64,000 nt of DNA from NCBI RefSeq assembly GCF_004345025.1, contig NZ_CP037745.1:1860001-1924000 (forward strand), in the 5' to 3' direction. Below the pieces are notes generated by a model. The model made no database searches and was not told the origin of the DNA. It worked only from the letters and a program-made list of their open reading frames with translations. The translations under genes and the position numbers were made by a program. Within the stretch, counting starts at the first letter, position 1; every line of letters begins with the position of its first letter. This DNA comes from Rheinheimera sp. D18. Its GTDB lineage: Bacteria > Pseudomonadota > Gammaproteobacteria > Enterobacterales > Alteromonadaceae. Positions 42,289 to 51,688 of this stretch are shown piece by piece.

Positions 42289-44199
42289 TTAAACTCTAGC
42301 TTTTGTTTCTGCTGTTACCTTAGCAATAAAGGCATCAACTGACATCTTACCTAAGTCTTCACCTTTGCGCGTTCTCAGTGCTATATCACCGGCTTCCATT
42401 TCTTTGTCACCTACAACAACAAGGTAAGGAATGCGCTTAAGCGTGTGCTCGCGAATTTTAAAGCCTATCTTCTCATTTCTCAAGTCACTTATTACTCTAA
42501 TACCGTGAGATTTGAAAGTTTTTGCTAAATTTTGTACATATTCGGCCTGATTATCGGTAATGTTCATTACCACCACCTGATTTGGTGCTAACCACGTTGG
42601 AAATTGACCGGCATATTGTTCAATTAAAATACCGATAAAACGTTCTAGCGAACCTAAAATAGCACGGTGGATCATTACCGGAATTTGCCGCTCACCACTT
42701 TCGGCTATATAAGAAGCACCTAGTCGAGCAGGCATCGAGAAATCAAGTTGTACTGTACCACATTGCCAAGCACGCTCTAAGCAATCGTACAAAGTAAATT
42801 CAATTTTCGGGCCGTAAAACGCGCCTTCGCCGTGTAAGTATTCAAACTCAATACCTTTTGCTTGCAATACTTCGGCTAAAGCTTTTTCTGATTTATCCCA
42901 AATCTCGTCCGAACCAACACGTTTCTCTGGGCGAGTAGATAGTTTCACCACGATATTTTCAAAACCGAAGGTTTTATAGGTTTCATAAACCATATCAATA
43001 CAGCCGCCAACTTCTGCCGCTATTTGCTCTTCGGTACAAAAAATATGCGCATCATCTTGGGTAAAGCCGCGTACGCGCATTAAACCGTGCAATGAGCCCG
43101 AAGGTTCGTTACGGTGGCAACAGCCAAACTCCGCCATACGCAGCGGTAAATCACGGTATGATTTTAAGCCCTGATTAAAAATTTGTACGTGCCCTGGGCA
43201 GTTCATCGGCTTAATAGCGTATTCACGCTTTTCCGACTCAGTGGTAAACATGCTATCGGCAAATTTATCCCAGTGACCTGACTTTTCCCATAACGTGCGG
43301 TCCATCATTAATGGGCCTTTTACTTCGTCGTAATCAAAGCTACGCAGTTTTTCACGTACAAAACGTTCTAACTCAGTAAAAATAGTCCAGCCGTCGTTAT
43401 GCCAAAATACCATGCCTGGCGCTTCTTCTTGCCAGTGAAATAGGTTTAACGCTTTACCAATTTTACGGTGGTCACGTTTTTCGGCTTCTTCTAACTGCAG
43501 CAAATAACCGGCTAATTGTTTTTTATCAGCCCATGCTGTGCCATATACGCGCTGTAACATTTTGTTTTTTGAATCGCCACGCCAGTATGCGCCAGCTACC
43601 TTCATTATTTTAAAATGCTGGCAAAACCGCATGTTAGGCACGTGTGGGCCGCGGCACATATCAATGTATTCTTCGTGATGGTACAAACCAGGTTGATCAT
43701 CTTTGGCGACGTTTTGCTCTAAGATTTCCATCTTGTAGCTTTCGCCGCGGGCTTTAAAGGTATCAAAGGCTTCTTGCCAACTGACTTTTTTCTTTATAAC
43801 GTCATATTCGGTTTTCGCCAGCAATTGCATGCGCTCTTCTAACGCGGCTAAATCATCATTCGTAATTGGGCGGTCTAAATCAACGTCGTAGTAAAAGCCT
43901 TTATCAATAACCGGGCCTATCGCCATTTTTACATGTGGCCAAAGCTGTTTAATGGCATGACCTAATAAGTGCGCGCAAGAGTGGCGAATAATCTCTAACC
44001 CTTCTTGGTCTTTCGCCGTAACGATACTTAAGCTTGCATCGCCGGTGATCATTTCGCAGGCATCAACTAACTGGCCGTTTATCTTACCGGCAATGGTCGC
44101 TTTAGCTAAACCGGGGCCGATATCTTTGGCAACATCTAATACGGAAACGGCATGTTCGAATGAACGCTGACTGCCATCAGGCAAAGTAATAACTGGCAT
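42289..44199 (-). CDS. thrS: Threonyl-tRNA synthetase
   Basis: 636 residues from the ATG at 44199 with TAAGGAT upstream (E. coli ThrRS is 642). The order is TGS domain (1-60, [14 protein letters not shown]), editing domain with [10 protein letters not shown] near 74-83 and the C182-like CRGPH near 180, class II catalytic core with [10 protein letters not shown] near 330 and [14 protein letters not shown] near 362-375, and anticodon-binding domain from about 535. It charges tRNA-Thr and edits Ser-tRNA-Thr. Its leader contains two tRNA-Thr anticodon-arm mimics. It is the first gene of the translation operon, 37 bases before infC. Confidence 0.97.
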
Positions 44200-44217
44200 G
44201 AAAATCCTTATACAGTG

Positions 44218-44238
44218 GTGGCCCAAACCAAGGGACAC
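44218..44238 (-). promoter_or_regulatory. thrS operator arm 1, tRNA-Thr(GGU) anticodon-arm mimic
   Basis: On the thrS strand, GTGTCCC and GGGCCAC pair (seven positions, one U-C mismatch) around the 7-base loop TTGGTTT. Read as a tRNA anticodon loop, position 33 is U and positions 34-36 are GGU, the anticodon for threonine ACC. It ends eight bases upstream of the ribosome site, where the E. coli ThrRS operator has its domain 2. Confidence 0.65.
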
Positions 44239-44281
44239 TTGTTAAATAAAATGGCAAAGTTACAGTGCAGTAATACAGTTA

Positions 44282-44302
44282 ATGGCTTATACAAGAAGCC
44301 AT
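44282..44302 (-). promoter_or_regulatory. thrS operator arm 2, tRNA-Thr(UGU) anticodon-arm mimic
   Basis: On the thrS strand, ATGGCTT and AAGCCAT pair perfectly (seven pairs) around the 7-base loop CTTGTAT. As a tRNA anticodon loop it has C32, U33, anticodon UGU and A37, which is exactly tRNA-Thr(UGU). A 43-base linker separates it from arm 1, like domain 3 between domains 2 and 4 in E. coli. Confidence 0.7.
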
Positions 44303-44351
44303 CTGTAGAACCGAGCACAGTAACTAGAAAAATTTCGATGCTATAGTAGCA

Positions 44352-44879
44352 TTAGGTAAGCTTTTTGACTACGCAGCGACACGCTTTTGCTTCAGCATTA
44401 AACCAAGTAGCAGGCAAAGTAATTTGTTGACGCAATATTGGTGCAATTAAACTATCTGATACCGAGCATAACGGCCCTGCAGCATAAGGGCCAGCATACA
44501 ATAATGTACCGCCGTTGAAAATAAGCACCGCTGGCGTAGCAGGTAAACGCAGCCCGGCAGCAGCAATGTGTTGCACATTACGCTCAAACTGTTGCTGTTT
44601 TGGTAGATCGTATAAACTAGAAAATTGTTGTTGATGCAATGCCGCTCGGCTATTACAAATACAATTATCTTCACGCACATGCACTACTTGAATGCTCTGC
44701 CCTACTGCAATACCTAATGCCGATAAACTAAATGTGCTTTGGGCAGGGCTTTGCCAATTAGTATCAGCAGCAAATTCGCCATAATATTCACCGGCAAAAT
44801 TAAACAAAGCTAGGCTGGTTAATACCAGCCAGCTAATAAACACGCCACTAAGCAGTATAACTTTATGCTGATGTAACAT
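44352..44879 (-). CDS. DUF6436-like thioredoxin-fold membrane-anchored protein
   Basis: 175 residues. One N-terminal membrane helix (VILLSGVFISWLVLTSLALF), then a periplasmic domain with VVHVREDNCICNSRAALHQQ near 66-85 and AVLIFNGGTLLYAGPY near 117-132. The CxC pair (CIC) and a C-terminal CRC suggest metal or thiol chemistry. The pattern resembles a small thioredoxin-like family of Alteromonadales, but the exact family is from memory. It lies eight bases after the chemoreceptor gene. Confidence 0.6.
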   Translation of the reverse strand: MLHQHKVILLSGVFISWLVLTSLALFNFAGEYYGEFAADTNWQSPAQSTFSLSALGIAVGQSIQVVHVREDNCICNSRAALHQQQFSSLYDLPKQQQFERNVQHIAAAGLRLPATPAVLIFNGGTLLYAGPYAAGPLCSVSDSLIAPILRQQITLPATWFNAEAKACRCVVKKLT

Positions 44880-51611: not shown

Positions 51612-51688
51612 GCGTCCTTAGCTCAGCTGGTTAGAGCACCACCTTGACATGGTGGGGGTCGGTGGTTCGAGTCCACTAGGACGCACCA
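51612..51688 (+). tRNA. tRNA-Val(GAC)
   Basis: A 77-base cloverleaf including an encoded CCA: acceptor GCGTCCT with AGGACGC, D-arm with AGCTCAGCTGG, anticodon stem CCACC/GGTGG, loop TTGACAT giving anticodon GAC (51646-51648), and T-arm with GGTTCGAGTCC. It decodes GUC/GUU. A strong terminator follows directly. Confidence 0.97.

Follow-up and report, generated by a model that had tools for sequence, protein, structure and literature searches.

The leader of thrS in Rheinheimera sp. D18, contained in the 64,000-nucleotide stretch of DNA analysed here (the window), is very probably an autogenous translational operator of threonyl-tRNA synthetase (ThrRS) of the E. coli type. The leader extends on the minus strand from the end of the upstream open reading frame (44352-44879) to the thrS ATG at 44199. 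It holds two hairpins resembling the anticodon arm of tRNA-Thr, one adjoining the ribosome site and a second one upstream, across a linker (Table 1). The initial annotation of this DNA had proposed a two-arm operator of the E. coli kind whose arms mimic two different threonine isoacceptors. The first part of this interpretation is borne out by conservation and covariation; the second did not stand, as letter 34 of the arms proved to be free. The synthetase itself belongs to the same type as the repressor of E. coli, with 75% identity to the K-12 enzyme over 635 residues, and its best PDB match is 1qf6. PDB entry 1kog is a complex of ThrRS with its operator.

Table 1. Features of the thrS locus, in window positions.
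Feature	Position	Strand	Basis
thrS, threonyl-tRNA synthetase, 636 aa	42289..44199	(-)	ATG at 44199
Shine-Dalgarno AAGGA	44205..44209	(-)	sequence; AGGA-like in most A1 leaders, by eye
Proximal domain: ACA/UGU outer helix, unpaired A44239, bulge CAC (44217-44215), arm 1	44212..44242	(-)	alignment A1 covariation
Proximal anticodon-arm mimic (arm 1), loop UUGGUUU, GGU at 44229-44227	44218..44238	(-)	sequence; model R1 match
43-nt linker between the arms, U-rich stretch 44257-44244	44239..44281	(-)	sequence
Distal domain: long imperfect hairpin, arm 2 at tip	44258..44325	(-)	fold -26.2 kcal/mol
UAACUG 3' of arm 2, counterpart of CACUG behind arm 1	44276..44281	(-)	ACTG flank scan
Distal anticodon-arm mimic (arm 2), loop CUUGUAU, UGU at 44293-44291	44282..44302	(-)	sequence, 7 pairs
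Promoter-like: TAGTCA (44371-44366), 17-nt spacer, extended -10 TGCTACTAT (44351-44343)	44343..44371	(-)	inferred

Arm 1 reads GUGUCCC-UUGGUUU-GGGCCAC (44238-44218) and forms six of its seven pairs, the mismatch being U44235 opposite C44221. Its loop is numbered U32 U33 G34 G35 U36 U37 U38, and 8 nt separate its end from the AAGGA (44209-44205). In arm 2, AUGGCUU-CUUGUAU-AAGCCAU (44302-44282), all seven pairs form around the loop C32 U33 U34 G35 U36 A37 U38. The two arms first noticed are real: the sequence agrees with the description of arm 1 as a hairpin with an exact seven-base loop, reading U33-GGU and ending eight bases before the ribosome site, and of arm 2 as having seven perfect pairs and C32-U33-UGU-A37. 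It was also correct that neither loop, with GGU and UGU, carries the CGU of E. coli. Two features had been overlooked, namely that arm 2 forms the tip of a long hairpin and that the same ACTG flank is common to both arms on their 3' side.

One arm alone means little, because 124 21-mers on the two strands of the 64 kb satisfy the arm definition of at least six pairs and an NGU loop. When the 152-nt leader was subjected to dinucleotide shuffling (n = 5000) under the same definition, at least one arm was present in 681 shuffles and two separate arms in 21. The folding energy of the whole leader is mildly unusual (z -1.77, 11 of 200 shuffles being as stable). That of arm 1 is not unusual relative to shuffles (z -0.73, or -0.33 with the outer helix), and the 68-nt distal hairpin (44325-44258) reaches z -5.51, with none of 200 shuffles equally stable. 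The decisive evidence for the reality of the arms is their conservation.

Both arms with an NGU triplet, the distal one across the linker, are present in all 30 leaders read in the genus (31 genomes searched, G127 left out). The scan sought only hairpins with GU at positions 35-36, and its 30/30 is to be read against a background in which about 31% of shuffled leaders hold a weak NGU hairpin (at least six pairs, 7- or 8-nt loop); the weight of the count rests on the arms being alike in position and sequence. The proximal triplet is GGU throughout the 30 leaders, and the distal one is CGU in 11, UGU in 10, GGU in 6 and AGU in 3. Two kinds of distal domain occur in the genus, 23 leaders having one like that of the window and 7 having another. 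The closest relative by ThrRS (G120, 93%; leader L245) belongs to the other kind, with the distal loop UUAGUGA. Its proximal domain is the same as in the window and its distal domain is quite different, so that, within the genus, one distal half has been exchanged for another. The check that the initial annotation had named as able to refute an operator, namely for close relatives devoid of the arms or of an NGU triplet, came out in favour of the operator in the genus and, as regards the proximal arm, in the family.

The search for compensatory changes that had been suggested in the initial annotation came out in favour of the proximal stem. In alignment A1 (82 leaders, 79 of them distinct, unfiltered), 96.1% of cells are paired, 8 of 10 pairs have changed on both sides and the covariation score is reached by none of 500 shuffles; the count of pair types stands out less, since 46 of 500 shuffles attain it. 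The homologue of this covarying stem is domain 2 of the E. coli operator, which is aligned with the proximal arm in A1 and A3. For the distal domain, alignment A2 comprised 23 distinct leaders picked by eye as being of the window kind (type A), and the structure was the window's own fold. There, 14 of 18 basal and middle pairs have changed on both sides and 77.3% of cells are paired, two of these pairs being broken in 12 and 13 of the 23 leaders. The covariation score of the whole A2 structure is reached by none of 500 shuffles, and its count of pairs changed on both sides is not in excess (15 versus 14.0 in shuffles, with 182 of 500 reaching it).

The wider leader set was composed of 80 thrS loci from genome contigs, E. 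coli K-12, the window and 115 leaders from a family sample of 118 genomes (in which G029 and G106 gave no thrS start), that is 197 leaders, or 181 distinct ones when those with the same last 150 nt were taken as duplicates. Scanning without regard to loop letters gave a proximal 7-7-7 hairpin with at least six pairs in 176 of the 181, and G35-U36, which both window loops contain, in 173. Such a hairpin stands at the proximal place in 43% of shuffles, and in about 3% with G35-U36 as well. Reading of the leaders whose proximal arm departs from the strict form revealed an 8-nt loop in L054, L055, L140, L173 and L174, and five pairs with CGU in L180. The proximal arm is absent altogether from two of the 181, L025 (Alteromonas sp. 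5E99-2) and L189 (G069); either the device is dispensable there or the start is misplaced. The covariance model R1, built from 71 of the 173 strict proximal arms after removal of near-duplicates, has a single match in the genome of the window, which is at thrS (E 1.7e-10, at E <= 1, with 150 of 1194 first-look candidates scored), so that further genomic copies of the proximal motif were rejected. Across the class, 83 of 369 genomes gave one match each (E <= 0.01, strict filters), and all 20 matches that were fetched, spread down the list, lie in front of a ThrRS N-terminus. For one of them, L315, the frame as printed begins early, and a stop precedes the ThrRS start MPIVTLPD.

Hairpins near ribosome sites are common in leaders, and on this general ground the arms could have a function connected with the ribosome, with an RNase or with a small RNA and be unrelated to ThrRS. 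We consider such a role highly improbable in view of the retention of G35-U36 in a 7-nt loop, the matching location of the E. coli operator, and the occurrence of the motif in front of thrS wherever this was checked. With regard to known RNA families, neither a T-box nor any other regulatory family of Rfam matches the window leader at the gathering score, and the only match at that score in the window is a tRNA. A known family for the leader was rejected, a chance lncRNA match far below the cut-off being all that was returned. The E. coli thrS leader gave no Rfam match at E <= 5 either, and it seems that no Rfam family describes the thrS operator.

Outside the genus, the distal arm varies far more than the proximal one. 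In the wider set, distal NGU hairpins score at least 14 in 55 of 181 leaders versus 1.2% of shuffles, and at least 12 in 81 versus 4.9%. In the sister genus (22 genomes and 21 leaders read, G155 giving no thrS), the strict distal scan with a 7-nt loop and at least six pairs succeeds in one of 21 leaders (L278), and in the members L007, L011, L086 and L090 the distal hairpin carries CGU in a loop of 8 nt. Inspection by eye suggests that certain leaders of Alteromonas and Idiomarina contain the proximal arm alone. It could be argued from the single sister-genus success, from the far greater conservation of the proximal arm and from the promoters seen by eye just upstream of that arm in several relatives that it is the sole ThrRS site, the distal domain acting chiefly as a structured 5' end for mRNA protection or for spacing of the ribosome site. 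This proposition is in our view unlikely, given a distal NGU in every genus leader read, NGU in 18 of the 20 best hairpins found by a loop-blind scan upstream of the terminators of relatives, and an ACTG flank at the distal arm identical to that of the proximal one.

The flank is in fact an argument for the preferred reading, an operator in which ThrRS would use both arms. CACTG follows the proximal arm in 36 of 36 leaders (the 30 of the genus and 6 others picked by eye), and in 34 of them the distal arm has ACTG no more than 7 nt away, the exceptions, L246 and L247, reading AATTG. In most leaders the CA before the arm can pair with the TG of the flank, and the bulge that remains has AC at its end; in L248 and similar leaders CTT replaces this CA. 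Because flank and bulge are common to both, the arms resemble variants of a single composite site, and a pair of like sites would suit a dimer. It is in this bulge that we place a mutation from a ceftazidime-borrelidin study, G to A at 1,802,589 in three E. coli strains (CEFBOR128-R3), which its authors propose to be a borrelidin-resistance operator mutation and leave to future validation (PMC13148393). In the mRNA this position is C-19, the C of the bulge, and 81 of 82 leaders have C there. Only L025 departs from this, having lost the arm and reading T, the same change as in the E. coli mutation. It can be surmised from this variation that ThrRS reads the bulge, and the E. coli mutation adds some weight.

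The comparison of the loops with the tRNA-Thr genes of the genome, also recommended in the initial annotation, yielded an agreement: the genome has one GGU gene, two UGU genes and no CGU gene (67 tRNAs read, 68 Rfam matches), and the arms match these isoacceptors. One may accordingly suppose a specific mimicry in which tRNA-Thr(GGU) is the model for the proximal arm and tRNA-Thr(UGU) for the distal one, the operator sensing each separately. Position 32 agrees with it, being U in the GGU arm and in the tRNA loop uugguaa, and C in the UGU arm and in cuuguaa, as does the constancy of the proximal GGU in the 30 genus leaders. A review table, moreover, lists G34 together with G35 and U36 among bacterial threonine identity elements, which speaks against a free position 34, and its text places threonine identity in acceptor pairs and in nucleotides of the threonine anticodons (PMC9976931). 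What makes isoacceptor matching very unlikely is the free variation of letter 34 and the existence of A34 arms in genomes where GGU and UGU were the only tRNA-Thr found. In the 173 strict proximal arms of the family, position 34 is G in 97, C in 32, A in 27 and U in 17, and within the genus the distal arm takes all four letters. In 8 of 8 relatives chosen for an AGU arm (proximal in seven, distal in G120), only GGU and UGU tRNA-Thr were found, among 30 loci fetched by a similarity search from one tRNA-Thr, a search that could miss an odd gene. The arm triplets follow the tRNA-Thr set in the genome of the window but, within the reach of that search, not in these eight, so that two-isoacceptor mimicry is not supported as a feature of the device. 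In all likelihood the GGU/UGU pair of the window is just one of the outcomes that a free letter allows; G35-U36 is what is kept in the arms, and the variation suggests that ThrRS does not read letter 34.

We propose the following mechanism for the two-arm operator. Each leader would contain two half-sites, composed of an arm of 7 bp, a loop that resembles the anticodon and has G35-U36, and a bulge whose final AC precedes UG. In the ThrRS dimer, each subunit would hold one half-site through its anticodon-binding region. With ThrRS in excess over tRNA-Thr, both arms would be occupied, and neither the Shine-Dalgarno sequence nor the U-rich linker would be accessible to the 30S subunit; a rise in free tRNA-Thr would displace ThrRS by competition and allow thrS to be translated. 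As letter 34 would not be read by ThrRS, the arms need not copy a particular isoacceptor. Binding, the use of the dimer and the competition with ribosome and tRNA are transposed to this organism by analogy with E. coli and may be expected to operate similarly. The U-rich stretch of the linker is likely to be the upstream half of a split ribosome site, an analogy drawn from the bipartite site of E. coli thrS (PMC3858243).

The E. coli thrS operator is a classic case of tRNA mimicry, and the likeness extends to the gene, to the start of the arm (-42 in E. coli, -39 in the window), to a proximal arm (GUGAUCU-UUCGUGU-GGGUCAC in E. coli) that can be aligned column by column, to the bulge CAC-UG and to an upstream hairpin across a linker. 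It differs in its CGU loop, as opposed to the GGU and UGU of the window. The distal domain of the window is a long hairpin bearing a 7-bp arm with a 7-nt NGU loop and the ACTG flank. Upstream in E. coli, a scan for 7-nt loops gave only a 6-pair match at -153, and a wider one a 7-pair hairpin at -106 whose 8-nt loop contains UGU. E. coli may thus have a distal NGU of its own, and the distal domain of the window is a counterpart, not necessarily a homologue, of domain 4 of the E. coli operator. T-box leaders also place synthetase genes under the control of tRNA supply. They differ in binding the tRNA directly (PMC7583486), and no T-box match exists in the window leader. Yeast AspRS and HisRS bind an anticodon-like element in their own mRNA (PMC6542539, PMC7373986); these are other enzymes, eukaryotic and with elements at other positions, and the likeness is one of analogy only.

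The mechanism is already known from E. coli and the finding is mostly known in kind; the switch turns out here to be ancient, to occur widely and to vary in a single letter that is informative. The finding is of value for its comparative rules and for the relatives that bear a terminator. The comparative set indicates the letters that matter, with G35-U36 and the bulge before UG fixed and the wobble letter free, puts the mutation of the borrelidin study at a nearly invariant base and offers candidate half-sites for a dimer. In marine relatives, the same mimic may control transcription.

A terminator-like hairpin upstream of the proximal arm is present in 67 of 181 leaders versus 102 of 905 shuffles, and 32 leaders have a strong terminator at -135 to -65. 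Upstream of these strong terminators, the 7-nt-loop hairpins of the loop-blind scan read NGU in 19 of 32 leaders overall and in 18 of the 20 scoring at least 11, a line set after viewing a list that holds the near-duplicates L020/L112 and L027/L028; the exceptions in this group are L015 and L036. The NGU hairpins usually lie behind a TATAAT-like hexamer. Alignment A4 of twenty 5' arms has 92.1% of cells paired and a covariation score reached by none of 500 shuffles, figures that hand-picking leans towards structure; L112 was dropped as a duplicate of L020, and L015 reads GAU, not NGU. In Alteromonas relatives the order is attenuator-like, with promoter-like sequence, anticodon-arm mimic, terminator, proximal arm and thrS in succession (L012, L016, L020, L027, L028, L038, L060, L093, L099, L100, L101, L108, L113, L131, L139, L150 and L187), and the terminators are mostly of the ACACCC-n-GGGTGT-T-run kind. 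In one genus, three of four genomes (L349/G094, L351/G011 and L350/G530, not L107/G060) have a terminator near the expected transcript start whose loop is itself NGU, reading CGU in AUCGUAA, in CUCGUAU and in the 8-nt loop of L350; G094, G011 and G530 show no separate distal arm by eye.

It can be hypothesised, tentatively and as a possibility that we regard with some doubt, that a switch of translation has, in the evolution of the thrS operator family, become one of transcription, the order promoter, mimic, intrinsic terminator and second mimic at the ribosome site being that of the Alteromonas-Paraglaciecola-Bowmanella group. If this is true, ThrRS on an anticodon mimic would decide whether RNA polymerase stops, and the window would represent the form with two like half-sites and no terminator. 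A search of the open-licence literature found no paper comparing thrS operators and none describing a thrS terminator among relatives of Alteromonas, a weak negative, and did not find a synthetase controlling transcription through an anticodon mimic. As to the window itself, the terminators standing between the arms in some relatives might suggest that attenuation acts there too; the probability of this is negligible, since no terminator-like site exists in 44150-44480, and a terminator in the window was rejected for the same reason.

Transcription of the window leader would be expected to start near 44336, downstream of the promoter-like sequence of Table 1; a consensus promoter scan at its own threshold returned no promoter at this leader. 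The sequence TGNTANNAT occurs at -175 to -130 in 23 of 30 genus leaders, which are all those with the window kind of distal arm, and in none of the 7 of the other kind. A T-run about 10 nt past the -10 element (44332-44328 in the window) recurs, by eye, in leaders of the genus and of the sister genus. The window also contains a tRNA-Val(GAC) gene at 51612-51688 (+), about 7.4 kb from thrS and on the opposite strand. In nine distant Gammaproteobacteria (L302, L303, L306, L307, L310, L312, L313, L316 and L317), a tRNA-like sequence, judged by eye to be tRNA-Val with GAC, ends just upstream of the thrS leader, and the window gene is perhaps a relic of this tRNA-Val/thrS neighbourhood.
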